NCBI GenBank assembly: GCA_000244995.1
Contig: CM001438.1
Span: 5,250,096-5,314,095, forward strand
DNA length: 64,000 nt
Origin: Burkholderiales bacterium JOSHI_001
GTDB lineage: Bacteria; Pseudomonadota; Gammaproteobacteria; Burkholderiales; Burkholderiaceae_C
Reading direction: 5' to 3'
Part shown: piece by piece, positions 25,916-40,645 of the stretch
Position numbering within the stretch: the stretch's first letter is position 1
How the letters are laid out: the number at the start of each line of letters is the position of its first letter
Translations under genes and position numbers: made by a program
Notes under the pieces: model-generated
Told to the model about the DNA's origin: nothing
The model's input: the letters and a program-made list of their open reading frames with translations, nothing else
Database searches by the model: none

Positions 25916-26830
25916 ATGCCGTCCACCAAGAAGACCGTCCCGGCCAAGGGCCTGGGCTTGCACCTGGGACTGAACGCCGTCAGCGCCGCCCACTACGGCG
26001 GCTGGAGCGGCGAGCTGAACGCCTGCGAGAACGACGCCAACGACATGGCTGCGCTGGCCAAGGGCCAGGGCATGAAGCCCACGGTGCTGCTCACCAAGAA
26101 GTGCACCCGCGCCAACTTCCTGGCCGCCATGCGCTCGGCCGCCAAGGCGCTGGTCAAGGGCGACTTCTTCTTCCTCACCTACTCCGGCCATGGCGGCCAG
26201 GTGCCCGACGTCACCGGCGAAGAAGCCGACAAGAAGGACGAAACCTGGTGCCTGTACGACGGCCAGCTGATCGACGACGAGTTGTACCTGGAGCTGGGCC
26301 GCTTTGCCGCCGGCGTGCGCATCGTGGTGCTGTCCGACAGCTGCCACTCCGGCACGGTCACGCGCGAAGGCCCGCCCGACACCAGCGCCGCGCCCGCCGA
26401 CGCGCGCAGCAAGATGATGCCGCTGGACATCGGCCGGCGCACCTACGGCCAGCACCAGGCCTTCTACGACAAGCTGCAGAAGGACGTGGTGGCCCAGTCG
26501 GCCAAGCTGGGCGCGGTGGACCCCGACGCCGCGCTCGCGGCCATCGCCCACACCGCCACCAGCGGACGCATCACCACCATCGCCAGCGTCTTCAAGCCCA
26601 GCGTGGTGCTCATCTCCGGCTGCCAGGACAACCAGACGTCCATGGACGGCCCGCACAACGGCGCCTTCACCGGCCGGCTGCTGAAGGTGTGGAACCACGC
26701 CGCCTACAAGGGCAACTACCCGCACTTCCACGCCACCATCCGCGCCGGCATGCCGGCCAGCCAGTCGCCCAACCTGTTCACGCTGGGACCGGTGGCCACG
26801 CTGCTGGCGCAGCAGCCGTTCAAGCTGTAG
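25916..26830 (+). CDS. Caspase-family (metacaspase-like) peptidase
   Basis: This 304-residue protein has a p20 caspase fold. The first strand region [16 protein letters not shown] is followed by [16 protein letters not shown], the catalytic histidine H92 in LTYSGHGGQ and the catalytic cysteine C143 in [10 protein letters not shown], both intact. The acidic DDELYLELG segment and a late [13 protein letters not shown] strand complete the domain, with no fused regulatory domain or signal peptide. Prokaryotic metacaspases cleave after Arg/Lys and often serve as suicide effectors. AAGGA precedes the ATG. It is the first gene of the island and is followed after 43 bases by a nucleotide-sensing protein. 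Confidence 0.92.
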
Positions 26831-26873: not shown

Positions 26874-27866
26874 ATGGCCCGCCACGACACCCTGAAGCTG
26901 CTGGTGGCCGGTACGCTGAACCCGCCCAGCACCGACCCCGACGCGCTGCGCGCCTTCGGCGCCGCGCTGGCGCATGAAGTGATCCAGTGCGGCCACACCT
27001 TGATGGGCGGCTGCATGAACGCCTTCGACACCGTGGTGGCCGAAGCCGCGCACCGCGCACTGGCGCGCCACGGCGCGGCCCCGGCCGCCGACGGCCTGCC
27101 GCGGCTGCGCAGCTTCGTGCTGGGCGGGCAGCAGCCGGCGCACGCCTTCGGCAGTGTGGTGCGCAGCCGGCTGAACAACTGGCAGTTGGACAAGGACGCG
27201 CTGCTGGTGCCCGAACAGGTGGCCCAGGCCGACGCGGTGGTGTTGTGCGGCGGCGGCGACGGCACCCTGGTGGCGGCCAACTGGGCCCGCATTGCCGGCA
27301 AGCCGCTGCTGCCGCTGGCGGCCTTCGGCGGGGCGGCCGAGCGGCTGTACCTGCGCGAGCTGGAAGGCTTCGCCCACCCCTATATCCCGGCCAGCCGCTA
27401 TGAAGTGCTGGGCCGCCTGGCCGCGCAACCCGCCTCCCTGGCCGCGGACGTGGTGCAGCTGGCCGAAGCGCTGGCGCTGCCACGCGAGGTGGCGGTGCTG
27501 ATGTCCTACGCCGACGACGCGGGCCTGGAAGCCAGCTTCAGCGCCGTGCGCCAGGCCTGCCACCAACTGGGCTTCCGTGCTGACCGGGTGGACCACGGCA
27601 ACACCTTGGGCCGCATCGTGCCGGCCATCATGCACCGCATCGAACACTGCGCCTTCGTGGTCTGCGACCTCACCGGCCTGCGGCCCAATGTCTTCTATGA
27701 ACTGGGCTTTGCCACCGGCCTGCACAAGCGCGTGGTGCAGATCGCGCGCGAAGGCACGGAACTGCCCTTCGACGTGCACGACCACCCCACCCTGTTCTAC
27801 CGCGACGCCGAAGCGCTGAAGCGCGAACTGGGCGAGCGCATCGCACTGGTGGCGCAACGCGGCTGA
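26874..27866 (+). CDS. SLOG-type sensor fused to deoxyribosyltransferase/TIR-like domain
   Basis: This 330-residue cytoplasmic protein appears to have two Rossmann-like halves. The N-terminal part has LLVAGTLNPPS, GHTLMGGCMNAFDTVVAEAA and VVLCGGGDGTLVAANWA (about 120-136), the pattern of SLOG/LOG nucleotide-binding domains. The C-terminal part has AVLMSYADDAG, FRADRVDH and CDLTGLRPNVFYELGFATGL (264-283) with the conserved E276, as in nucleoside 2-deoxyribosyltransferase-like and TIR-like enzymes that act on nucleotides or NAD. It may sense a nucleotide signal and process it. The assignment is by motif only. It lies between the caspase gene and a second SLOG-like gene. Confidence 0.75.
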   Translation: MARHDTLKLLVAGTLNPPSTDPDALRAFGAALAHEVIQCGHTLMGGCMNAFDTVVAEAAHRALARHGAAPAADGLPRLRSFVLGGQQPAHAFGSVVRSRLNNWQLDKDALLVPEQVAQADAVVLCGGGDGTLVAANWARIAGKPLLPLAAFGGAAERLYLRELEGFAHPYIPASRYEVLGRLAAQPASLAADVVQLAEALALPREVAVLMSYADDAGLEASFSAVRQACHQLGFRADRVDHGNTLGRIVPAIMHRIEHCAFVVCDLTGLRPNVFYELGFATGLHKRVVQIAREGTELPFDVHDHPTLFYRDAEALKRELGERIALVAQRG

Positions 27867-27923: not shown

Positions 27924-28568
27924 ATGGTGCCCGTCATGCCTGCCGCCCCTCCTCTGCCACCTGGCAACCAGCCCCTGCGCCCGCGCCAGGTGCTGCTGTT
28001 TTCCGGCCACCTGATGGACGCCCCCGACCGCGCCGTGCCACGCTTCCCCCCGGCGATGGAAGCCGCGGCGCGGCAGGCCATCGACGCCGAACTGGACCGC
28101 CTGGGTGCAGGCCCGGCCGACCTGGCGCGGGCGCAGGCCGCTGCCGGTGGCGACCTGCTGTTCCTGCAAGCCTGCCAGCGCCGCGGCCTTCAGGTGCAGG
28201 TGCTGCTGCCGTTTGACGAAGCCCGCTTCCTGGACGAATCGGTGCGCGGTGCAGCCTTTAACCGCGAGCAGGGCGACTGGGTCGGTCGCTACCAGGCCGT
28301 TCGCCAGCGCTTGACCAGCCCGCCGCGCCTGATGCCCGATGAACTGGGGCCGCTGCCAACCGGCGCCGATGCCTTCGAGCAATGCAACCTGTGGCTGCTG
28401 AACACCGCGCTGGCAGCGGGCGCGGACCGGCTGAACTTCATCTGCCTGTGGAACGGCGGCGGCGGCGACGGCCCCGGCGGCACCGCGCACATGGTGAACG
28501 AAGTGAAGCGCCGCGGCGGCAGCGTTTGCTGGATCGACACGCGGCGGCTGGGCACGGCGCCTGGCTAG
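27924..28568 (+). CDS. SLOG-like Rossmannoid protein
   Basis: A 214-residue protein with the marks of a family seen beside TIR, caspase and TPR genes in conflict loci. VLLFSGHLMDAP is the first strand and loop, GGDLLFLQACQRRGLQVQVLLPF the nucleotide-binding-type helix and strand, then FEQCNLWLLNTALAAG and a terminal GGGGDGPGGTAHMVNEVKRR loop. I regard it as SLOG-like and have no name for it. Starts at 27924 and 27936 are both possible. A perfect TTGACA -35 hexamer at 27901-27906 would place transcription near 27936, so an internal, possibly leaderless promoter cannot be excluded. Confidence 0.7.
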   Translation: MVPVMPAAPPLPPGNQPLRPRQVLLFSGHLMDAPDRAVPRFPPAMEAAARQAIDAELDRLGAGPADLARAQAAAGGDLLFLQACQRRGLQVQVLLPFDEARFLDESVRGAAFNREQGDWVGRYQAVRQRLTSPPRLMPDELGPLPTGADAFEQCNLWLLNTALAAGADRLNFICLWNGGGGDGPGGTAHMVNEVKRRGGSVCWIDTRRLGTAPG

Positions 28569-28652
28569 GGATGGCCCGCCCCGGCCTGCGTGCTACCTTC
28601 GCCCGACCTACCGCCGCCGGCGTCCCCGCCCAACAAGAAGACGAACCCGCCC

Positions 28653-29996
28653 ATGCCGATGCCCACCGTCGTCCAGACCCGGCCCCCTGGGACCGTGCGG
28701 CATGTCTTCATTTCGTATTCGCGCGACGACGTGCAGCCCGGCGGGGACCTGCCGGGCCTGTTCGCGCAGGCGCTGCGCGACCTGGCAAGCAAGCGCCCCG
28801 AACTGGGCCTGGCCGACGAGCGCATCTTCTTTGACCGCCACCGGCTCATGCCCGGCGACGTCTGGGGCGAAGCCATCCTGCAGGCGGTGGAGCGTTCGCA
28901 GCTGTTCGTGCTGCTGGTCAGTGCGTCCTCGCTGAAGTCAACGGTCTGCATGCAGAAGGAACTGGCCGTGGCGGCGGGCCGTGGCATCCCCATCGTGCCG
29001 CTGCTGCTGGAGGACTGCGAATGGGCCGGCTTCGCGGTGCCCGGCGACGCCCGCGGCCGCAAGCTGGGTGATTTCGACGCCCAGCCGAAGAATTCGCAAG
29101 GCCGCCTGCAGCCGGTGCGCACCTGCGCCGACCCGGCCGCCGTGCTGGCCCAGACGGTGGCCGCCATCGGTGAACGGCTGCAGCGCGACGCGCTGGACTT
29201 GGGGCCGGCCCCGGGCACGCCGCCCCGGCCCATGGTGTCGCCGCTGCTGGCCTACCACTGCAACGAAGAAAAGATCGAACGCCAGTTCGACCGCGGCCTG
29301 ATGCGCTGGGACAGCCAGGCCCTGCTGGTGCTGGCGCGCGGGCGCTTCGACGACAACGTGCCCAGCTTCTGGGACCGCCTGCGGCTGAAGAACCTGAGCG
29401 ACATCGTGGACGAACGCGAAGTCCAGTTGCTGCCCGAACGCCCCTTGAAGTGGCCAGCGGTGCTGGTGGACGGCAAGCCGGGCAACCCGGCCGACGTGGC
29501 GCTGGACGTGGCGGCAGCACTGTCGGACGCGCTGACCGGCAAGCGCTTCAAGCTCAGGGACAGCGCCGGCCTGGCGGCGTGGTTGCAGGCGCAAAGTGGC
29601 GTGACGCCGCTGATCGCCGTGCCCAAGGTGGAGCCGGCCGCGGCGCTGCAGGCCGGCCTGGTGGCGCTGCTGGACCTGATCGAAGCCACCCCGCCCGACA
29701 CCCCGCTGGACCGCCTGGTGCTGGCTTTCTCGGTCGAAGACCCGCAGTTGCTGGAAGGCCCCGGCGTCTTCAAGCCGGAGGACCTGCAGCGCTGGCAGCG
29801 CACCCAGGTGCTGGCGCTGAACCCGCTGGAGCCGCTGACCCGCGAGGACGTGCGCAAGTGGTGGACCGAACAGTCGGTGCAGGACCACTGCGCCCTGGAC
29901 GACCAGGCCCTGCTGGCGCGCGTGTTCACCGACACCGACACGCTGCGCCTGCGCCACTTCGACGAACGTGTTCGCCCGCTGCTGGGCCTGGGCTGA
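28653..29996 (+). CDS. TIR-domain protein with STAND-like C-terminal region
   Basis: A 447-residue protein. Residues about 15-140 form a TIR domain: VFISYSRDD, IFFDRHRLMPGDVWGEAI, LFVLLVSASSL and CMQKELAVAAGRGIPIVPLLLED. E103 in the CMQKEL motif is at the position of the NADase glutamate, though the usual Trp before Cys is Val. The remainder (about 190-447) lacks a P-loop but runs like a degenerate STAND NTPase (EEKIERQFDRGL, WDRLRLKNLSDI), compatible with the inactive STAND domains described in MoxR-linked conflict systems. ATG 28653 is preferred to the GTG at 28590. MoxR follows after 30 bases. Confidence 0.82.
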   Translation: MPMPTVVQTRPPGTVRHVFISYSRDDVQPGGDLPGLFAQALRDLASKRPELGLADERIFFDRHRLMPGDVWGEAILQAVERSQLFVLLVSASSLKSTVCMQKELAVAAGRGIPIVPLLLEDCEWAGFAVPGDARGRKLGDFDAQPKNSQGRLQPVRTCADPAAVLAQTVAAIGERLQRDALDLGPAPGTPPRPMVSPLLAYHCNEEKIERQFDRGLMRWDSQALLVLARGRFDDNVPSFWDRLRLKNLSDIVDEREVQLLPERPLKWPAVLVDGKPGNPADVALDVAAALSDALTGKRFKLRDSAGLAAWLQAQSGVTPLIAVPKVEPAAALQAGLVALLDLIEATPPDTPLDRLVLAFSVEDPQLLEGPGVFKPEDLQRWQRTQVLALNPLEPLTREDVRKWWTEQSVQDHCALDDQALLARVFTDTDTLRLRHFDERVRPLLGLG

Positions 29997-30026: not shown

Positions 30027-30995
30027 ATGAGCTTCCATGCCTTTCGCGGCCACGGCCCCCTGCAGCGCCCCGAGGGCGCGCCGCCCATCGACCCGCTGCG
30101 CGACCCCGGCGGCTACCGCGCCGGCGAAGGGCTGGCGAATGCGGTGAACGTGGCGCTGGCCTTGCGCATGCCGCTGCTGGTGACCGGCGAGCCCGGCACC
30201 GGCAAGACGCAACTGGCCTACCGGCTGGCCGCCGAGCTGGGCCTGGGCGAGGTGCTGCGCTTCGACACCAAGTCCTCCAGCGTGGCGCACGAACTGTTCT
30301 ACCAGTTCGACAGCATCCGCCAGTTCGCACAGTCGCAGCTGCATGCCACCGCCGGGCGCGAACTGCCGCCGGCGCGCGAGTTCCTGCGCCTGTCGGCCCT
30401 GGGCCTGGCGATCGTGCGCACCCATGCGCCGGACCTGGTGCGCGACCGCCTGGGCGCCAGCCACGCGCATGAACAGCCGCAGCGGTCGCTGGTGCTGATC
30501 GACGAGATCGACAAGGCGCCGCGCGACTTCCCGAACGACCTGCTCAACCAGATCGAGAACCTGGAATTCGCGCTGCCCGAACTGGGTCAGCACTGGCGCG
30601 CCAGCCCCGCACTGGCGCCGGTGGTGGTGATCAGCAGCAATTCGGAAAAACAACTGCCGGAGCCCTTCCTGCGGCGCTGCGTGTACCACCACATCGAGTT
30701 CCCCAAGGACCACGAAGAACTGCAGGAAATTCTCGGCGCCCGGCTGCAGAAGCTGCCGCTGAAGGGCCTGGGCTTCGACCAGGCCCTGGCGCTGTTCTTC
30801 AAGGTGCGCGGCGACGGCGGCTTCGAGAAAAAGCCCTCCACGTCCGAACTGCTGGACTGGCTGCGCGTGCTGGCCGCCGCCGGCCTGGACGCCGCCCGGC
30901 CACTGGCCGACCAGAAGGACCTGGTGCTGTCCACGCTGGGCAGCCTGCTGAAAACCCGGGCCGACCTGGAACGCGGCCCGTCGCTGCTGAACTGA
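30027..30995 (+). CDS. MoxR-type AAA+ ATPase
   Basis: This 322-residue ATPase has Walker A GEPGTGKTQ with K60, Walker B SLVLIDEIDKA with D159 and E160, sensor 1 VVISSNSEK, an arginine-finger region LPEPFLRRCVYHHIEFP and a lid domain. DKAPRDFPNDLLNQIENLEF is typical of MoxR. MoxR ATPases remodel or activate partners that usually carry vWA or membrane domains. The gene lies 31 bases before a large membrane protein that I take to be that partner, and 30 bases after the TIR gene, consistent with one operon. GGGAGA precedes the ATG. Confidence 0.93.
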   Translation: MSFHAFRGHGPLQRPEGAPPIDPLRDPGGYRAGEGLANAVNVALALRMPLLVTGEPGTGKTQLAYRLAAELGLGEVLRFDTKSSSVAHELFYQFDSIRQFAQSQLHATAGRELPPAREFLRLSALGLAIVRTHAPDLVRDRLGASHAHEQPQRSLVLIDEIDKAPRDFPNDLLNQIENLEFALPELGQHWRASPALAPVVVISSNSEKQLPEPFLRRCVYHHIEFPKDHEELQEILGARLQKLPLKGLGFDQALALFFKVRGDGGFEKKPSTSELLDWLRVLAAAGLDAARPLADQKDLVLSTLGSLLKTRADLERGPSLLN

Positions 30996-31026: not shown

Positions 31027-34000
31027 ATGGCCACCGACGCCACGATGACGCACGGCCCGGCCCTGGACGCCTGGCTGGCGCACCTGGACGCCGAAGGCTT
31101 TGCCATCGGCCTGCGCGAACGCCTGGTGGTGCAGCGGCTGATGCTGCAACTGGCGGCGCAGGGCGAACTGCCCACCGACCTGCGCGCCATGCTGGCGCTG
31201 GCCATGCCGCTGCTTTGCACCCGGCCCGAACAGCAGCGGCGCTACCAGGACCTGCTGGCCAACTTCCAGTTGCGCAGCGGTGAAGAAGCTTCCACCAGCA
31301 CAGCCGCCCTGCCGCCGGCCGCGCGCAAGGCGCAGCGCCGCAACCGCCTGTGGCTGGCGCTGGGGGTGACACTGGCGCTGGTCCTGCTGGTGTCGCTGGG
31401 GCATTTCATCGTGAAGTCGCTGCGCGAACAGGCGCTGACGCAGGAACCCCCGCAGACACCCGCCGCATCGCAGGCGGCGCCGGCATCGGCGCCACGCGCA
31501 GAGTCGCCAGCCGACGATGGCCTGCAGGTCTTCGTACCGTCGGACTACCTGGCCGTGACCATGCCCGACGAAAGCGGCTGGCGCCAGCCGCTGCAGTGGC
31601 TGTTGGTGACCGTGGGCACCTTCGCTTCGGTGCTGCTGGTGGGGCAGCTTTGGGCGCGGCGCCAGCGCCAGCTTTACCTGCAGGGCGTGCGCAGCGACGA
31701 AGACGTGCGCGAACACCTGCTGCGCGACGCCAACCCGGTGCGCGTGGGCCCCAGCCCCAGCACCGCGCGGGCGGTGGCGCGCGGCCTGCGCCAGCGCGTG
31801 GAAGGCGACGCGCTGGCGCTGGACGTGGCCGCCACGTTGCGCGCCAGTGTGCGCGCCGGTGGCGCGCTGGCGCCGCGCTGGCGCGCCCTGCAGCGCACGC
31901 CCGAGTACCTGGTGCTGGTGGAACAGCGCCACGCCAGCGACCACCACAGCGCCTACGTGCACGCCCTGCTGGACGCGCTGGCCGATGCCGGCGTGGCGCT
32001 GGACACCTGGCACTTTGACGGCACACCCGCGCTGGGCTGCTGGCCCGCGGCGCTGGAATTCGGCAGCGACGCGGCCATCAGCCGGCGCGTGGGCGTGGGC
32101 GAACTGCTGACCCGCCACACCGGCCACCGCCTGCTGGTGTTTGGCCCGGTGCAGGCCCTGCTGGACCCTTTGAAGGGCAGCCCGCAACGCTGGACCACCA
32201 GCCTCAGCCTGCTGCCGCAGCGTGTTTGGTTCACGCCGCTGCCGCTGCAGGCCTGGGGCAATGCCGAGGCCCAGGCCGACGCTTTGGGCTTCCTGCTGCT
32301 GCCGCAGCAGGTGCCGGCGCTGGACACCCTGGCCGGCTGGTTGGCCTCGCAACGGCTGGAACTGGCGGTGCAGGCCGACTGGCCGCTGTCCTACCCGGCG
32401 CTGCTGCGCGACAACACCGCCGCCTGGGCCGCGCGCGAAGCCCCACCCGACGCCGCCACGCTGGCCGAACTGCTGTTCCAGCTGCGCACCGCGCTGGGCC
32501 CGCAACGCATGCGCTGGCTGTGGGCCTGCGCGGTGTTTCCGGCGCTGTCGCCACCGCTCACCCTGGCGCTGGGGCGCGAGCTCATCCCCGACGACCCGCG
32601 TGCGCTGGCGCTGGGCGCAAGCGCACTGGCGGCCCTGCCCTGGTTCCGCTACGGCCGCCTGCCCGACTGGCTGCGCGAGGCGCTGCTGGACGAGATGGCC
32701 ACCCAGGACCCGGCGCTGCAGCAGCAACTGCGCCCCTTCATCGAACGCCGGCTGGACGGCGCCCTGCTGGACGGCAACGCGCCGGTGCTGGCGCGTGTGG
32801 CCACGCCGCAGCGCGTGGCCGCCTGGCTGCAGCGCGGCCGCGGCCTGGCGCGCGACCTGGTGATGGTGCGCTTCCTGGAAGAAGACAGCGGCTCGCGCCT
32901 GCTGCAGCGCCTGCCCGAAGGCCTGCGACGGCGCCTGTTCAAGAACGGCCTGCCAGCGCTGGGCCTGCGCCTGGGCGTGTTGGCCTGGGCCTTGGCAGCG
33001 GCCAGCGTGGCGCTGGCCATCAGCTGGGGCAGCGTGTGGCCGCTGGCCCTGCCACCGCTGTTGGCCTTCATGGCAGCCCTGCGCGCCACGCGGCGTTGGG
33101 CCCAGGGGCACAGCCCGGCATGGCAGGCCCGGTGGTTTGTGCAGGGCCGACCGGCCGAGGGCCTGCGCTGGGGGGGGCGGCTGCTGCTGGGCCTGTCGGC
33201 CCTGCTGGCCACCAGCGTCTCGCTGGGCCTCATGTTCATGCTGCTGGGCTACATCCTCACCGAACGCGAAACGCTGACGGCCACGTCGTTCCCGCTGCCA
33301 CCAGCGTCCAACACCGGCGACAGCTTGTCGGTGGAAGCCCTGGCCTTCGCCCCCGATGGCCAAAGCCTGAATCTGCGGGTCAGTGGCAATGGCCATTTGC
33401 GCTTGGACTTGCGCACCGGAGCGTGGCTGCCCGCGGCGGGGTCACCGCCTGAAAAGGAAGCCGTGACCACCCTGCTGGCCAAGCAGGGCCATGTGCGGGT
33501 GGTGCTGGACGCCGAGCAGGTGCTGCGCCTGAGCGCGCTGGGCAGCGACGGACGTTGGCGCACCCTTGGCGACGAACCCCATGGCCAGCGCGCCCAGGCG
33601 GTGGCGCTGGCGCCCGACGAAAGCCGCCTGGCCCTGGCCCAAGGCGCGACGATCTTTGTGTACGGCAGCAATCTGGAATCCAGCAAGCCCATCCACCTGG
33701 CCTTGCTGGACTGCGAAGGCGCGCGCACGGTGAGCCCGGCGCTGCGGGAGATGGCGACCGGGGCCCGCGCATGGACCTCGCGCCTGGTGGCCGTGGCCTA
33801 CACGCCCGAAGCCTTCGACCGCCTGCATGGCCGCGCCGCCCGCGCCGCACCGCGCACCATCACCTGGGGCGACCGCCAGGGCGTGGCTGAACTGCCCGAA
33901 GCCGTCCAATTGGTTCAACGCTGGGCGCAGGGCGAGTGGCCCGACGTGCGCTGGACCATCCGCGCCGTGGTGAACCCCAACGCCGACCCGGTGATCGCGG

Positions 34001-34773
34001 TGGGTGCCTGCCTGAACCCACCCCCTGCCAACACCCCGGTCCAGACCGACAACACCGGGGCCTTGCTGGCGGGCGTGGCCCGGATGTTCGACGCCAATGC
34101 CGACACCCGCGTGCAGGCCACCCAGGCCCTGGAGGCCGACAGCGCCAACCTGTCGGAGGTGGTGCCACTGGCCGTGGACCAGGCGCTGAAGACGCTGGAA
34201 ACCGCGGGCGCCAAGGTGGACAACACGGTCGCGTCGGGCGTGATCAACACCCTGGTGCTGCTGCAGGCAGCCAGCCCCGAGACCTTGCGCGCCAACGGCC
34301 CGCCCATTGCCGACCTGCTGGAACGCGCCGCGGCCCTGGGCCCGGTGAGCGCCGGCCGCGCCAAGGCCGTGGCGGCGCGCGTGGCCCAGGCCGCCAAGCT
34401 GCGGCCCCAGGTGTTCATTCAGTATGCGGGCACGGCCCAAAGGCCCTTGGCCCTGGCCCTGCAACGCAAGCTGCAAGGCCTGAAGTACGACGTGCCCGGT
34501 ATTGAAGACGTGAGCGGCAAGGCCACGCTGCCGCAGCGGCCGGAAGTGCGCAGCCTGGGCGCCAGCGACCGATTGCTGTCCACCGAGGTCAGCGTGGAAA
34601 GCGCCCTCGTGATGGAGCAGACGCCGGCCTACGTGTCCCTGCCCCAGCGCGTGGACAACGACCGCTACGAGCTGTGGCTGGACGCCGACGCATGTGTGGG
34701 CCGCAAGGTGCCGGCCTGCTACAGCACCGCCGCCGGCAACAAGTCCCGCAGCGCGGGGACATCGAAGTTCTGA
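31027..34773 (+). CDS. Large multi-pass membrane protein, putative MoxR partner
   Basis: A 1248-residue protein of no family I can name. Hydrophobic helices lie near 107-130, 197-216, 645-685 (probably two) and 719-743. The cytoplasmic-looking block from about 290 (YLVLVEQRHASDHHSAYVHALLDAL) to 375 (HRLLVFGPVQALLD) alternates strand and helix like the vWA-type partners of MoxR, but a canonical MIDAS (DxSxS) is not visible. Residues about 750-900 look beta-rich (AFAPDGQSLNLRVSGNGHLRL), about 1020-1125 helical and repeat-like. The C-terminus has IQYAG..RKLQGLKYDVPGIEDV, a motif seen in small alpha/beta domains. No clear ribosome-binding site precedes ATG 31027; ATG 31045 is an alternative. Confidence 0.72.
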   Translation: MATDATMTHGPALDAWLAHLDAEGFAIGLRERLVVQRLMLQLAAQGELPTDLRAMLALAMPLLCTRPEQQRRYQDLLANFQLRSGEEASTSTAALPPAARKAQRRNRLWLALGVTLALVLLVSLGHFIVKSLREQALTQEPPQTPAASQAAPASAPRAESPADDGLQVFVPSDYLAVTMPDESGWRQPLQWLLVTVGTFASVLLVGQLWARRQRQLYLQGVRSDEDVREHLLRDANPVRVGPSPSTARAVARGLRQRVEGDALALDVAATLRASVRAGGALAPRWRALQRTPEYLVLVEQRHASDHHSAYVHALLDALADAGVALDTWHFDGTPALGCWPAALEFGSDAAISRRVGVGELLTRHTGHRLLVFGPVQALLDPLKGSPQRWTTSLSLLPQRVWFTPLPLQAWGNAEAQADALGFLLLPQQVPALDTLAGWLASQRLELAVQADWPLSYPALLRDNTAAWAAREAPPDAATLAELLFQLRTALGPQRMRWLWACAVFPALSPPLTLALGRELIPDDPRALALGASALAALPWFRYGRLPDWLREALLDEMATQDPALQQQLRPFIERRLDGALLDGNAPVLARVATPQRVAAWLQRGRGLARDLVMVRFLEEDSGSRLLQRLPEGLRRRLFKNGLPALGLRLGVLAWALAAASVALAISWGSVWPLALPPLLAFMAALRATRRWAQGHSPAWQARWFVQGRPAEGLRWGGRLLLGLSALLATSVSLGLMFMLLGYILTERETLTATSFPLPPASNTGDSLSVEALAFAPDGQSLNLRVSGNGHLRLDLRTGAWLPAAGSPPEKEAVTTLLAKQGHVRVVLDAEQVLRLSALGSDGRWRTLGDEPHGQRAQAVALAPDESRLALAQGATIFVYGSNLESSKPIHLALLDCEGARTVSPALREMATGARAWTSRLVAVAYTPEAFDRLHGRAARAAPRTITWGDRQGVAELPEAVQLVQRWAQGEWPDVRWTIRAVVNPNADPVIAVGACLNPPPANTPVQTDNTGALLAGVARMFDANADTRVQATQALEADSANLSEVVPLAVDQALKTLETAGAKVDNTVASGVINTLVLLQAASPETLRANGPPIADLLERAAALGPVSAGRAKAVAARVAQAAKLRPQVFIQYAGTAQRPLALALQRKLQGLKYDVPGIEDVSGKATLPQRPEVRSLGASDRLLSTEVSVESALVMEQTPAYVSLPQRVDNDRYELWLDADACVGRKVPACYSTAAGNKSRSAGTSKF

Positions 34774-34894: not shown

Positions 34895-37800
34895 ATGGCC
34901 GCCAGCCCCATCACCTTCGTCGTCCCCGGCCAGCGCCTGGACAACGCCACGCGCGACGGTGCCGGCGCGGCCCTGCCGCCACCGCTGGGCCTGCCGGGCA
35001 CGCTGGGGGCGTCCATCAAGCTGGGCGCGCAGCGCGCCGGTGGCCAGCCGCACCGGCTGACCGCCAGGCCCGGGCAGGACGTGGTGGTGCTGCACCTGGC
35101 CGGCGGGCCGTCGCTGGTGCTGCACCCGGAAAGCGCACGCGACCTGCTGCTGGCCCAGCAGCCGCGTGTCAAGCGCGCCGCCGGCCAGCCCGCGCCCGAC
35201 ACCGTGGACGTGGACCCGCAGCTGCGCTGGAACGACGGCCGCAGCCCCCAGGGCAGCGCCGACCGCAGCGCCACCCGCGGCTGGTTGGGCGACGTGCTGC
35301 TGGCCGGGCTGGACGTGGTGATCGACCCGCTGAAGGGCAAGGCCCAGGACTATGTGGCCGGCCAGTTGGTCAGGCACATGGACGCGCAGGTGGACGAAGG
35401 CCTGTACGCGCTGCAGCCGCAAGTGCTGGGTTCCTTGAAGGGCGGCGCGCGGCTGGACAGGCTGCCGCCCGAATGCGCGGGCCAGGCCTCGCTGGTGTTC
35501 ATCCACGGCACCTTCTCCACCACCCAAAGCGGCTTCGGCAAGCTGTGGACCCAGCACCCGCAGCGCGTGCGCGCGCTGTTCCAGCACTACAACAACCGCG
35601 TCTTCGCACTGGACCACCGCACGCTGGGCGCCAACCCGATTGAAAACGCGCTGACCCTGGCGCGCGGTTGCCCCAAGGGCGCACGCCTGCACCTGGTGAC
35701 GCACTCACGCGGCGGCCTGGTGGCCGAAGCGCTGGCGCGCGCCGGTGGATTGGCCCAGGCCGCCAAAGTCGATCCCGCCGACCTGGCGCTGTTTGACGCT
35801 GAACCGCGCGCCCAGGCGGCGCTGAAGGAGCTGGTGGCGTTGATGGGCAAAGGCCCGGGCGGGCGCGACATCCGGGTGGAGCGCATCGTGCGCGTGGCCT
35901 GCCCGGCGCGTGGCACGCTGCTGGCCAGCCAGCGCCTGGACGCCTGGCTGTCGGTGTTCAAGTGGGCGATGGACCTGGCCAACCTGCCGGTGCTGCCCGA
36001 GATGATGGACTTCCTGGCCGGCGTGGCGCAGCGGCGCGAAGACCCCAGCAAGATCCCCGGCGTGGCCGCCATGGTGCCCGACAGCCCGCTGGTGCGCTGG
36101 CTGCATGCGGTGGACGAACCCGTGCCGGGCAAGCTGTTCGTGGTGGCCGGCGACCTGCAGGCCGACAGCGTGGGCTCCTGGGTCAAGACCCTGCTGTCCG
36201 ACGCCTTCTACCGCACCGACCACGACCTGGTCGTCAACACCTCCAGCATGTACGGCGGCGCGCCGCGCGCGGCCGGCGCCGGCTTCGTGCTGGACCAGGG
36301 TGGCAAGGTCAACCACTTCAACTACTTCGCCAACGAACGCACCGCCGCCGCGGTGGTGTCGGGCCTGACGCAGGACACGCCGGACGACTACCGCAGCATC
36401 GGCCCCTTGTCCTGGGCCGGTGAATCGGCCAGCGGCGAACGCGCCGCCCGCCGCGCCGTGCGCGCCCAGCGTGGTGAAGACAGCGCACCGGGTTCGCGCC
36501 CGGCCGTCTTCATGCTGCCGGGCATCCTGGGCAGCCACCTGGCGCGCAACGGCAAGCGCATCTGGTTGAGCTGGCGCCTCATCAACGGGCTGAAGCAGCT
36601 GGAATACCCCGAAGCCGCCGACGTGACCATCGCCGCCGACGGCGCCATCGGCATGATCTACGAAGACCTGATGGACCACCTGGGCGCCAGCCACGAGGTC
36701 ATCGAGTTCAGCTACGACTGGCGCCGCCCGGTGGAGCAGGAAGCGCGGCGCCTGGGCGCGGCGGTGGAACAGGCCCTGGCCGCGCGCGAACGCAGCGGCC
36801 AGCCGGTGCGGCTGCTGGCGCACTCCATGGGCGGGCTGGTGGCGCGCACCATGCAGCTGGAATGCCCCAAGGTCTGGGACCGCATGATGGCCCACGCCGG
36901 CGCGCGGCTGCTGATGCTGGGCACGCCCAACGGCGGCTCCTGGGCGCCCATGCAATGCCTGTCGGGCGACGACAGCTTCGGCAACACCCTGGTGGCCTTT
37001 GGCGCCCCCTTCCAGGACCGCAGTGCGCGCCAGATGATGGCCCAGTTCCCCGGCTTCCTGCAATTGCAGGCCGGGCTGGTGAACGACCCGCGCGGCCTGG
37101 ACCAATCGGAAACCTGGAAAAAGCTGGCCGAAGAAGACCTGCGACGTGTGCGCGAACACAACTGGTGGCACAGCGACGAGCGCCAGGAATCGGCCTTCGA
37201 GTGGGGTGTGCCCGCCCAGGAGGTGCTGAACCAGGCGGTGGCCCTGCGCAAGAAGCTCGACGCCCAGCGCGACACCACGCTGGCCAAGTACAAGGGCAAG
37301 CTGGCCCTGGTGGTGGGCCGCGCCAAGTTCACCCCCGACGGCTTCGAGGTGGGCGACGAAGGCCTGGTGTACCTGAACACGCCCGAATCCGGCGACGGCC
37401 GCGTGCCCCTGCCCAGTGCGCTGCTGCCCCAGGTGCCCACCTGGCAGCTGGAGTGCGACCACGGCAAGCTGCCCGACGAGAAGAGCGCCTTCGACGCCTA
37501 CCTGGAACTGCTGACCACCGGCAGCACCAACCAACTGCCCACGCTGGGCACGGCGGCGGCCAACCGCGGCGGCGCCGCGGTGCAGGCCAGCGGCAGCGGC
37601 ACCGCCGCCACCGCCGCGGTGCTGCGCAGCCGGCCCTCGCGCCAGCGCCAGGGCGACGCCCAGCCCGGCGACCGCGACCCGCTGCGCGACGCCGTGGCCC
37701 TGGACGCCTGGGGGCCCGCGCCGGCCAGCCTGCTGGCCATCAGCGTGCGCAATGGCGACCTGAAGTTCGTGCGCCTGCCCCTGCTCGTGGGCCACTACCG

Positions 37801-40645
37801 CTCGGCGGTGCTCACCGGCACCGAGTACGTGGTGGACTGCCAGATCGGCGGCACCATGAGCGCGTCGCTGTTGATGGGGCAGTACCCGGACGAGCCCGGC
37901 ACGCACCAGGTCTTCACCAATGTCACCGTCAATGCCGACAACCCCTGGCAGATGCCGCGGCCCGAAGCCGTGGTGGTGGTGGGCCTGGGCGCTGAAGGTG
38001 AACTGCGGCCGGCCAAGCTGTCCTACAGCGTGAAGTGCGCGGTGCTGGCCCAGGCCCAGCGCCTGGTGGAGCGGATCGAAGGCGCGCCGCTGCAGTTCGA
38101 AGTGGCCGCCACCCTGCTGGGCAGCGGCGGCGTGGGCATCAACCCAGGCCAGTCGGCCCAACAGGTGGCCATGGGCGTGCGCGAGGCCGACCTGGCCATC
38201 GCCAAGATCAACCGGCGGCTGGAGCAGCAGGCCCTGGAGCGTGGCGCCGCCGCCGGCCCGGGGTACAAGGAACTGCGGCTGTGGCCGCGGGTGGCGCGGC
38301 TGCACCTGGTGGAGCTGTTCCTGGACCGCGCCACCGAAGCCTGGCGGGCGCTGAAGTCGCTGAACGAAGCCATGCCGGGGCAGTTCGCGCTGGCCGACCG
38401 GGTGGACAGCGACACCGGCGCCCTGCGCCGGCCGCTGGACGGCGGCTACCGTGGCACCGGCTACGACCTGATCAGCGCGTTGGCCACCGGGCCGGTGGGC
38501 AACGAGCAGATCCTCTACACCGCCGACACCAAGCGCGCCCGCAGCGAGGTGCGCGCCCAGTCTACCCAGGCCGCGCTGGTGCGCGAGCTGGTGGCCAGCG
38601 CGTCCAACCACGCCAAGGACGACACCGCCATCGGCCACACCCTGTTCCAGCTGCTGGTGCCGCTGGAGCTGGAGCCCTACCTGGGCAGCAGCAGCGAAAT
38701 GCTGCTGGAGCTGAACCCCGGCACCGCCGGCATCCCCTGGGAACTGCTGGACACCGAAACCGGTCGCGTCAGCCAGGGCGACCTGCGACCCTGGGCGGTG
38801 CGCAGCAAGCTGCTGCGCAAGCTGCGGCTGGACAACTTCCGCCCCAACGTGCTGGACGCCGGCACCGACGCCGCCGCCCTGGTGATTGGCGAACCCGACT
38901 GCGACGCCACCAAGTACCCGCCGCTGCCCGGCGCCCGCAGCGAGGCCCAGGCCGTGGCGCAGCGCCTGGCCGGCCCCGGCGGGCTGGCGCCGGACAAGGT
39001 GAACGCGATCATCCGCAGCGACGACGAAGGCGCCGTTGGCCCCAGCGCGCGCGAGGTCATCGGCGCGCTGCTGCAGCGGCCCTGGCGCATCGTGCACATC
39101 GCCGGCCACGGCGAAGCCGCCACCGCCACCAACCCGGGCGGTGTGGTGCTGACCAATGGCACCTTCCTGGGCCCGCGCGAAATCCGCAACCTGCGCGTGG
39201 TGCCTGAGCTGGTGTTCGTGAACTGCTGCCACCTGGCGCGCCGGCCCAATTCACAGCTGCTGACCGCCGGCTTCGAGACGGGCGAGTCCAACCCAGCGCA
39301 GTTCGCCGGCACGGTGGCCGAAGAGCTGATACGCGCCGGCGTGCGTTGCGTGGTGGCCGCCGGCTGGGCGGTGGACGACGCGGCCGCCGCCGCCTTTGCC
39401 GACACGCTGTACCGCCTGCTGCTCAGTGGGGCGCGATTCATCGACGCGGTGGGCGCTGCGCGCGACGCCGCACAGCGCCTGGGCGGCAACACCTGGGCCG
39501 CCTACCAGTGTTATGGCGACCCCGAATGGACCTTGCGCGCCGGCGGCGCCCGGCGCGCACCGCGCTCGATGGAGCGTGAATTCGACGGCGTGGCCTCGCC
39601 GGTGTCCTTGACCCTGGCGCTGGAAACCTTGGTCTGGCAAAGCAAGTTCCAGGGCGCCGCCTCGGCCGGGCAGCTGGAACGCATCCGCCACCTGGAAGCG
39701 CGCTTCGGCCCGGTGTGGGGCGGCATGGGCGCGGTGGCCGAAGCCTTTGCGCTGGCCTACGACGCCGCGGGCGACCGCGCCAGCGCCATCGAACGCTACG
39801 AACAGGCCACCACCGCCAGCGACGGCAGCGCGTCCATCAAGGCCGGCGAACAGCTGGCCAACCTGCAGGTGCGCCAGGCCTGGGCCGGCGTTCAGCACCT
39901 GGCCGTGCCGCGCACCGCCGCGAAGGCGGGCGCCGGCAAGGCCCAGCCCGCACGGCGGCGTGGCGCCACGGCGGCCAGCGCGGCGGCGGCACCGGCCACG
40001 GCGGCATCACCGGCCTGGGCGCGCGCCCAGCGCCAGATCGCCAAGGCGCTGGAGCTGCTGCGCATGCTGATCGACTTCCAGCCCACGCTGGAACGCCACA
40101 TGCTGCGTGCGTCCGCCCACAAGCGCCTGGCGATGATGGCGCAGGCCCGCGGCGACGACCCGGCCTGGGACGCCAGCCTCGCCGACATGGCCAAGGCCTG
40201 CGAACAGGCCCTGAAGGCCGGCCGCGATGCCGGCCAGGCCGGCGAGCTGCACTACCCCTTGAGCAACCTGCTGGCCGCTGACGTGGCGCGCCACGCCGGC
40301 CAGCCCGGCTGGGCCGGCCCCGACAGCACGCTGGTGAGCCAGTTGCGCCAGGCGCTGAGCCAGCGCGCCAGCGAAAACCCCGACTTCTGGAGCGTGGTGG
40401 GCCTGACCGAGCTGCGGCTGAAACTGGCCATGGCCGAGTGCAAGGTGCGCGTCGACGCGCTGGCCCTGGGCACGGAATACGCCAACCTGAACGAACGCGT
40501 GCCATCGCCAGGCCACTGGAGCTCGGTGGCCGACCAGATGGCCTTCCTGCTGCCGGGCTACCTGCAACGCGTGTCCGACCCCGACGAGCGGGCCGCGGCG
40601 CAGCGCCTGTGGGACCAGGTGAAGACCTACGCCAAGGGGCGTTGA
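34895..40645 (+). CDS. Double alpha/beta-hydrolase, CHAT protease and TPR fusion (1916 aa)
   Basis: A 1916-residue protein starting at an ATG with a strong AGGAGAG site. First hydrolase: LVFIHGTFSTTQSGFG near 200 and nucleophile S271 in VTHSRGGLVAEA. Second, LCAT/PGAP1-like hydrolase: VFMLPGILGSHLARNGKRIW near 535 and S644 in LLAHSMGGLVART, with LGTPNGGSW behind. A beta-rich middle part follows. The CHAT caspase-like domain has ELNPGTAGIPWELLDTETG, H1405 in HIAGHGE and the cysteine pair C1444-C1445 in VFVNCCH (C1445 is the better match to the catalytic residue). The last 400 residues are helical, TPR-like. No signal peptide is seen. It combines two potential lipases with a protease in one chain. 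Confidence 0.88.
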   Translation: MAASPITFVVPGQRLDNATRDGAGAALPPPLGLPGTLGASIKLGAQRAGGQPHRLTARPGQDVVVLHLAGGPSLVLHPESARDLLLAQQPRVKRAAGQPAPDTVDVDPQLRWNDGRSPQGSADRSATRGWLGDVLLAGLDVVIDPLKGKAQDYVAGQLVRHMDAQVDEGLYALQPQVLGSLKGGARLDRLPPECAGQASLVFIHGTFSTTQSGFGKLWTQHPQRVRALFQHYNNRVFALDHRTLGANPIENALTLARGCPKGARLHLVTHSRGGLVAEALARAGGLAQAAKVDPADLALFDAEPRAQAALKELVALMGKGPGGRDIRVERIVRVACPARGTLLASQRLDAWLSVFKWAMDLANLPVLPEMMDFLAGVAQRREDPSKIPGVAAMVPDSPLVRWLHAVDEPVPGKLFVVAGDLQADSVGSWVKTLLSDAFYRTDHDLVVNTSSMYGGAPRAAGAGFVLDQGGKVNHFNYFANERTAAAVVSGLTQDTPDDYRSIGPLSWAGESASGERAARRAVRAQRGEDSAPGSRPAVFMLPGILGSHLARNGKRIWLSWRLINGLKQLEYPEAADVTIAADGAIGMIYEDLMDHLGASHEVIEFSYDWRRPVEQEARRLGAAVEQALAARERSGQPVRLLAHSMGGLVARTMQLECPKVWDRMMAHAGARLLMLGTPNGGSWAPMQCLSGDDSFGNTLVAFGAPFQDRSARQMMAQFPGFLQLQAGLVNDPRGLDQSETWKKLAEEDLRRVREHNWWHSDERQESAFEWGVPAQEVLNQAVALRKKLDAQRDTTLAKYKGKLALVVGRAKFTPDGFEVGDEGLVYLNTPESGDGRVPLPSALLPQVPTWQLECDHGKLPDEKSAFDAYLELLTTGSTNQLPTLGTAAANRGGAAVQASGSGTAATAAVLRSRPSRQRQGDAQPGDRDPLRDAVALDAWGPAPASLLAISVRNGDLKFVRLPLLVGHYRSAVLTGTEYVVDCQIGGTMSASLLMGQYPDEPGTHQVFTNVTVNADNPWQMPRPEAVVVVGLGAEGELRPAKLSYSVKCAVLAQAQRLVERIEGAPLQFEVAATLLGSGGVGINPGQSAQQVAMGVREADLAIAKINRRLEQQALERGAAAGPGYKELRLWPRVARLHLVELFLDRATEAWRALKSLNEAMPGQFALADRVDSDTGALRRPLDGGYRGTGYDLISALATGPVGNEQILYTADTKRARSEVRAQSTQAALVRELVASASNHAKDDTAIGHTLFQLLVPLELEPYLGSSSEMLLELNPGTAGIPWELLDTETGRVSQGDLRPWAVRSKLLRKLRLDNFRPNVLDAGTDAAALVIGEPDCDATKYPPLPGARSEAQAVAQRLAGPGGLAPDKVNAIIRSDDEGAVGPSAREVIGALLQRPWRIVHIAGHGEAATATNPGGVVLTNGTFLGPREIRNLRVVPELVFVNCCHLARRPNSQLLTAGFETGESNPAQFAGTVAEELIRAGVRCVVAAGWAVDDAAAAAFADTLYRLLLSGARFIDAVGAARDAAQRLGGNTWAAYQCYGDPEWTLRAGGARRAPRSMEREFDGVASPVSLTLALETLVWQSKFQGAASAGQLERIRHLEARFGPVWGGMGAVAEAFALAYDAAGDRASAIERYEQATTASDGSASIKAGEQLANLQVRQAWAGVQHLAVPRTAAKAGAGKAQPARRRGATAASAAAAPATAASPAWARAQRQIAKALELLRMLIDFQPTLERHMLRASAHKRLAMMAQARGDDPAWDASLADMAKACEQALKAGRDAGQAGELHYPLSNLLAADVARHAGQPGWAGPDSTLVSQLRQALSQRASENPDFWSVVGLTELRLKLAMAECKVRVDALALGTEYANLNERVPSPGHWSSVADQMAFLLPGYLQRVSDPDERAAAQRLWDQVKTYAKGR

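Follow-up and report, generated by a model that had tools for sequence, protein, structure and literature searches.

The window in this study was a stretch of 64,000 nucleotides from contig CM001438.1 of Burkholderiales bacterium JOSHI_001. It contains a row of seven genes on the same strand, which runs from a caspase gene starting at position 25916 to the gene of P0001 with gaps of 21–121 bases between the genes (Table 1). P0001 is a 1916-aa open reading frame that starts with ATG. The caspase and TIR genes of the row are separated by two genes. The bpMoxR match of the MoxR-type gene was 20.9 bits, which was below the cut-off of 27. A PADLOC search of the window listed a single match for P0001 at E ≤ 0.01, a weak one to SAVED_CHAT. 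The 214-aa protein of the row possibly has a nucleotide-handling fold, which is a guess by eye. The product of the next gene downstream of P0001 (40856–42727) has a PKD domain and its start is signal-like; this gene is probably unrelated.

Table 1. Genes of the row and parts of P0001, with their positions in the window.
Feature	Details	Position	Strand	Evidence
Caspase-family (Peptidase_C14) gene	Head of the row; SGHGG and DSCHSG	25916..26830	+	Pfam, motifs
SLOG/Nuc_deoxyrib_tr-like gene	Cap17-like N part and Nuc_deoxyrib_tr below cut-off; PADLOC "Effector", TIR	26874..27866	+	
214-aa gene	No Pfam match; relatives in 11/80 related loci, 9 within 4 kb	27924..28568	+	
TIR-domain gene		28590..29996	+	Pfam, PADLOC
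MoxR-type AAA+ ATPase gene	AAA families above cut-off, bpMoxR and MadB below	30027..30995	+	
1248-aa gene	Hydrophobic (membrane-like) stretches; vWA/propeller by eye	31027..34773	+	No Pfam match at E ≤ 0.1
P0001, whole gene	DUF7379 hydrolase – LCAT/PLA2-like hydrolase – macro/M17-N-like – CHAT – TPR-S-like	34895..40645	+	Pfam, models, fold search
Hydrolase 1 (DUF7379)	Residues ~196–490; S271, D444 (or D420), H474	35480..36364	+	Pfam, conservation
Hydrolase 2 (LCAT/lysosomal phospholipase A2-like)	Residues ~532–880; S644, D834, H856	36488..37534	+	Pfam, fold, profile, conservation
Variable linker between hydrolase 2 and macro-like domain	Residues 881–945; RSRPSR, candidate protease/docking site	37535..37729	+	
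Macro/leucine-aminopeptidase N-terminal (M17-N)-like domain	Residues ~946–1163	37730..38383	+	Fold search of model
CHAT caspase-like protease domain	Residues 1245–1542; H1405, C1445	38627..39520	+	Pfam, fold, conservation
TPR tail, TPR-S-like	Residues ~1569–1916	39599..40642	+	Pfam (sub-cut-off), model, fold

The sequence-only reading of this gene had proposed that P0001 combines two hydrolase sites with a CHAT site and a TPR tail, all of which were conserved in the family alignment described below. The two nucleophiles, S271 in THSRGG and S644 in AHSMGGL, were confirmed to be in separate hydrolases that match Pfam DUF7379 and LCAT, respectively. An incomplete Ser-Asp-His triad, which had been named as an observation that would speak against this reading, was found in neither hydrolase, as both triads are complete at the sequence level. 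The DUF7379 (PF24096) match of hydrolase 1 was 111.2 bits against a cut-off of 33 (E 7.9e-32), with its best stretch at residues 200–285. The assignment of hydrolase 1 rests on this match, the motif order and conservation, and the whole-region fold comparison barely probes its fold. The LCAT (PF02450) match of hydrolase 2 was 30.3 bits against a cut-off of 21 (E 3.4e-7, residues 565–698). Moreover, comparison of the hydrolase 2 profile with PDB returned the lysosomal phospholipase A2/LCAT family at E 1.9e-8, and the hydrolase 2 model resembled lysosomal phospholipase A2 with a Foldseek E of 8.9e-10 and a Z of 26.2 over 295 residues at 3.0 Å. The phospholipase effector Tle4 also resembled hydrolase 2 (Z 23.4). 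A DWR motif was conserved in the P0001 family (78/79 at each position), and we take this motif of hydrolase 2 to recall the YDWR of the lysosomal phospholipase A2/LCAT family.

The suggestion that the hydrolase was duplicated was not borne out. Alignment of the two profiles with hhalign covered 87 columns around the nucleophile, with an identity of 18%. Although the hhalign probability was 90.5, the global alignment paired the acid and His regions poorly, and duplication of one hydrolase was rejected. Judged from their sequences, the two hydrolases of P0001 are members of distantly related families that have been fused, rather than copies of each other.

H1405 (HIAGHG) and C1445 (VNCCH) were both within the CHAT domain as predicted, given that the Pfam CHAT (PF12770) match spans residues 1245–1542, with 95.8 bits against a cut-off of 24 (E 4e-27). 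The CHAT part of the model resembled separases and the TPR-CHAT of Craspase (Z ~16–21). A macro/M17-N-like domain that had been overlooked was found by fold search of the C-half model (Z ~16–17.7), and Pfam M17_N was found in the paralog P0002 and 4 of 50 family C-halves. The TPR-S (PF20308) match of the tail was 18.4 bits, below the cut-off of 27.6, and covered residues 1710–1794. The best fold match of the tail was the central regulatory region of ASK1 (Z 19.6, 268 residues, 3.7 Å), a score that is inflated by helical repeats. The AlphaFold2 model of residues 40–905 was built from 61 sequences with a mean pLDDT of 82.6 and that of residues 925–1916 from 63 sequences with a mean pLDDT of 87.7. 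The relatives included were 60 of 63 (all except L072, L081 and L088) and 62 of 65 (all except L021, L072 and L081), respectively. Structure prediction, which had been recommended for defining the domain limits, gave matches for hydrolase 2, the macro-like domain, the CHAT domain and the TPR tail; hydrolase 1 was not separately resolved. The highest 19-residue hydropathy average of P0001 was 1.34. Thus, no membrane helix is evident in P0001, and neither is a hydrophobic export signal. Based on the conserved sites, the proposed combination of hydrolase and protease activities in a single chain is likely, and the fold predicted for hydrolase 2 is of the phospholipase type.

One scan of genome contigs identified 132 relatives of P0001, and the analysis continued with the best 80. 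These 80 were from beta-, gamma- and alphaproteobacteria, Desulfuromonadales and other deltaproteobacteria, Nitrospirota, Acidobacteria and one Verrucomicrobium. Together with P0001 and P0002 they formed an alignment of 82 rows. Conservation was counted in 81 rows, leaving out L081, whose frame is wrong and which is still among the 82 aligned sequences and the 80 loci of the neighbor counts. For L021, whose sequence is divided between two frames, the alignment contains only the second part. The patterns used for the scan, CYGDPEW and DHD[LF]VV[NH]T, favor D442/D444 and the end of CHAT by selection. D444 is inside one of these patterns, whereas S271, D420, H474, S644, D834, H856, H1405 and C1445 are outside them. 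Among the readable positions, those of hydrolase 1 were invariant (S271 in 76/76, D420 in 77/77, D444 in 77/77 and H474 in 77/77). In hydrolase 2, S644 was conserved in 77/78, D834 in 80/80 and H856 in 80/80, and in CHAT, H1405 was conserved in 81/81 and C1445 in 80/80. All eight active-site positions were intact in 74 of the 75 fully readable members, and the exception was a Cys at the position of S644. This substitution is in L062, in which the motif reads AHCMGG, and the protein is perhaps a thiol hydrolase.

Pfam matches at E ≤ 0.01 were tallied in 50 rows of the model alignment for each half, the window protein included. DUF7379 and LCAT were each found in 50/50 N-halves, CHAT in 50/50 C-halves and TPR-S in 47/50 C-halves, with a best E of 2.8e-14. 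Thus, these domains travel together. The median identities to P0001 were 0.45 and 0.37 for the two hydrolases, 0.42 for CHAT, 0.31 for the macro-like domain, 0.25 for the TPR tail and 0.21–0.22 for the linkers. By these sequence identities no other named domain diverges as much as the TPR tail, which would suit a sensor.

The linker after hydrolase 2 was partly of low confidence in the AlphaFold2 models. Only R891 (79/80) and P914 (80/80) were near-invariant in it, and both could still be functional. The motif R[ST]R[PS][ST]R was found in the linker of 17 of 81 members and at no other place in these proteins. Metacaspase-type enzymes with DSCHSG usually cleave on the C-terminal side of basic residues. 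Thus, RSRPSR is a candidate for cleavage by the caspase or by CHAT within one clade. Motifs of this type were present in 9 of 25 members with a caspase and in 8 of 56 without one found nearby, a count that includes the window, whose own caspase belongs to the same row of genes and is 8 kb upstream. A cleavage site common to the whole family was not identified in the linker alignment; the RSRPSR-type motif was limited to those 17 members.

Relatives of P0001 were also found on plasmids. Fifteen plasmid records matched by tblastn, of which 7 covered 65–78% of the query and the other 8 covered only 10–37%; in none of the 15 did a single site cover 80% of the query. Among the 7, one relative adjoins genes for a methyltransferase, a restriction subunit S, Fic and a recombinase, and another, from Paracoccus, is among genes for sugar metabolism and transport.

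Nine CHAT matches, including P0001, were found in the genome of JOSHI_001 itself. P0002 (2033 aa; L015, C1 3636000–3655000) was 33% identical to P0001 in the alignment and has the same layout, although TPR-S was not among the Pfam matches listed for it. Its gene is situated between a SIR2-CHAT gene and a NACHT gene whose product has an NNH1 domain, and an Amidase_2-LysM gene follows farther out. P0003 (967 aa; C1 5448900–5451800, L014:2901–5804) contains CHAT ahead of DUF7379, an order unlike that of P0001, and a part that weakly resembles WD40. In pairwise alignment, P0003 keeps THSSGG but has another residue at the position of H1405 and a gap at that of C1445. Thus, of the two sites in P0003, that of the hydrolase has persisted longer than that of the protease. 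The gene of P0003 comes after that of an 881-aa protein without a Pfam match. The search with P0003 of 40 related genomes, its own included, matched 7, of which 5 had a matching frame of 1828–2059 aa, and full-length P0003 was found only in its own genome.

Similar to P0001, its relatives are often associated with genes of a few recurrent types. Within 4 kb of the family gene, caspase genes were found at 24 of the 80 loci, TIR genes at 22, M15 peptidase genes at 10, genes of the 214-aa family at 9, Amidase_2 genes at 4 and patatin genes at 3. At least one of these six types was present at 45 loci and none at 35, with some contigs too short to judge (67 have 1 kb upstream and 70 have 1 kb downstream). 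Loci at which a type was found only beyond 4 kb numbered 3 for TIR, 2 for the 214-aa family and 0 for caspase, M15, Amidase_2 and patatin. The binomial P values for this near/far comparison, which ignore shared descent, were 1.3e-8 for caspase, 2.3e-5 for TIR, 5.2e-4 for M15, 0.02 for the 214-aa family and 0.05 for Amidase_2. The counts of TIR (24 or 22) and M15 (13 or 10) varied with the seeds, and the lower figures are used here. An initial count of patatin at 19 loci was inflated, as one seed probably also caught TIR sequence, and was replaced by the recount of 3. The TIR protein of the window had one weak tblastn match (L088) and none by profile, and the 22 TIR loci came from other seeds. 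Among 82 hand-picked neighbor proteins, Pfam identified Peptidase_C14 in 19, TIR_2 in 11, Peptidase_M15_3 in 5, Amidase_2 in 4, PG_binding_1 in 3 and Patatin in 3.

The caspase genes (24/24) and M15 peptidase genes (10/10) were all on the same strand as the family gene. The caspase genes were all upstream by one count and in 22 of 24 loci by another, in which two family frames probably start too early, and the M15 peptidase genes were downstream in 10 loci. TIR genes were also within 4 kb at 5 of the 24 caspase loci. By eye, no signal peptide was seen at the start of the M15 and amidase proteins, and many phage endolysins likewise lack one. At 9 of the 80 loci (L055, L056, L062, L064, L065, L071, L074, L075, and L078), the caspase, the lipase/CHAT protein and the M15 peptidase form a trio on one strand. 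Homologs of MoxR and the 1248-aa protein were found in the available flanks of none of the 80 related loci, which ruled out these two genes as core partners of the family. The architecture of P0001 is real, conserved and widespread, and its surroundings are defense-like in about half of the loci. Its neighbors suggest a programmed-death or defense role for the P0001 family.

On balance, we lean toward P0001 being a cytosolic and normally latent phospholipase-type death effector of a defense-type locus, which would be gated by protease, triggered through its TPRs and break membranes. For such an effector we infer the following course. The TPR tail would sense an infection signal, perhaps a partner protein or a nucleotide produced by the neighboring gene of TIR or SLOG type, and this sensing would free the CHAT protease. 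CHAT or the linked caspase would then lift the block on the hydrolases, with a cut in the linker that follows hydrolase 2 as one possible means. The freed hydrolases would attack the membrane phospholipids from inside, and the cell would die before the phage matures. At loci with a linked peptidoglycan hydrolase, the membrane damage would give this enzyme access to the wall, and lysis would be completed. In favor of this reading are the intact active sites, the joint occurrence of the domains, the fold matches of hydrolase 2 and CHAT, the caspase, TIR, M15 and Amidase_2 genes close by, the hydropathy of P0001, the surroundings of P0002 and of one plasmid relative, and the precedent of protease-activated pro-nucleases. 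Against it count the 35 loci with none of the six neighbor types, the surroundings of the Paracoccus relative, the MoxR, 1248-aa and TIR searches of the available flanks, the sub-cut-off TPR-S match of P0001, the restriction of the RSRPSR-type motif to 17 members and the weak PADLOC result. A wider proposal, which we put forward tentatively and consider rather doubtful, is that the family is a widespread and undescribed single-chain phospholipase weapon in which the TPR tail sets off CHAT, which with the aid of a linked caspase unlocks two different lipases, and that together with linked cytoplasmic wall hydrolases it forms a self-lysis cascade of the holin-endolysin kind, in which the phospholipase takes the place of the holin.

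Other roles of P0001 would fit parts of these results. The CHAT domain might itself be the executioner that cuts other proteins of the cell, with hydrolases that are accessory, for instance in membrane tethering or deacylation of targets, and with no self-processing. In line with such a role, CHAT was matched in every member scanned, and the TPR-CHAT of Craspase acts on a separate substrate. However, both hydrolase sites were conserved as well as that of CHAT, and P0003 retains the serine motif of DUF7379 but not the aligned His and Cys of CHAT, which renders this role unlikely. We regard it as similarly unlikely that P0001 acts as effector within a ternary conflict system of the MoxR-vWA type (Kaur et al. 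2020), in which the MoxR and 1248-aa genes would be a threshold switch. The closely spaced row from caspase to P0001 would agree with such a system, and the pairing of caspase with alpha/beta-hydrolase has been reported in VMAP systems (PMC7159879). Given the absence of MoxR and 1248-aa homologs from the available flanks of the other family loci and the sub-cut-off bpMoxR match, however, the switch would be at most a local add-on.

P0001 might be a housekeeping enzyme of lipid or membrane remodeling, with a protease for its turnover, if the conserved active sites and the ordinary neighbors at some loci were taken by themselves. The patchy distribution seen in the P0003 search, the relatives on plasmids and the recurrent links to caspase and TIR genes argue against it, and make a housekeeping function highly improbable. 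The least probable role is that of an antibacterial effector that is secreted or delivered by a T6SS, as Tle phospholipases are. The resemblance of hydrolase 2 to Tle4 and the Pfam Tle3 matches in 2 of 50 N-halves (E ≤ 0.01) would agree with delivery; however, P0001 is without a hydrophobic signal segment, and the linked caspase, TIR and NACHT genes fit an intracellular role. No T6SS family was among the matches listed, which cover 25 of the 55 neighbor Pfam families and for this reason make a weaker argument. Thus, a latent intracellular effector gated by protease is the role that we prefer for P0001. If so, the P0001 family is a candidate lipase case of protease-gated death effectors, with both partners in one chain and 132 relatives, and signaling by TIR and caspase would be joined to the destruction of membrane and wall in one pathway.

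The single domains of P0001 are of kinds already known. In the literature searched, no paper on DUF7379 and no description of the hydrolase-hydrolase-CHAT-TPR combination were found. The combination may have been described earlier in work on TPR-S, on which Burroughs and Aravind reportedly published a paper in 2020. Similar to P0001, the Craspase TPR-CHAT (Csx29) of type III-E CRISPR possesses a CHAT protease and TPRs (fold Z 17–19, Foldseek E 4.9e-5). Different from P0001, in which two hydrolases are fused and the TPR tail follows CHAT, the protease of Craspase is a separate protein that is partnered with gRAMP/Cas7-11. SAVED-CHAT is a sensor-gated protease whose CHAT resembles that of P0001 (Z 19.2 but at an rmsd of 12.1, with the weak PADLOC match), whereas P0001 has hydrolases and no SAVED domain among its Pfam matches. 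Hydrolase 2 shares its fold and Ser-Asp-His with lysosomal phospholipase A2/LCAT; unlike that enzyme, it belongs to a bacterial chain of five domains, in which no export signal is evident. In type IV Thoeris, the caspase is activated by N7-cADPR. Similar to type IV Thoeris, in which TIR signals to a caspase-like protease, the window has TIR and caspase genes in one row, which here are non-adjacent, and the available part of the type IV Thoeris description includes no lipase-CHAT protein (PMC12847820).

The VMAP and other MoxR-vWA ternary systems, for which the pairing of caspase with alpha/beta-hydrolase is reported, share with the window a MoxR gene, a caspase and an alpha/beta-hydrolase (PMC7159879), whereas the other loci of the P0001 family have no MoxR or 1248-aa gene in their available flanks. 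The available part of that paper contained no word starting with "chat" or "lipase", in a word-start search that does not cover words of the phospholipase type (PMC7159879). In earlier work on death effectors, an alpha/beta-hydrolase is named as a membrane-lipid effector among those of bDLD3 (PMC8195603), the death effectors of CARD-NLR systems include phospholipases, and proteolytic activation is reported for gasdermins in bacteria (PMC13236601). The idea of a death enzyme gated by protease is shared with the nuclease-protease pairs and canu. Protease-activated pro-nucleases act in phage defense, and other classes of enzymes may be gated by proteases too, as was suggested for the nuclease case (PMC12799240). 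In those systems a nuclease is combined with a trypsin or caspase (PMC12799240), whereas in P0001 phospholipase-like domains and CHAT are combined in one chain.
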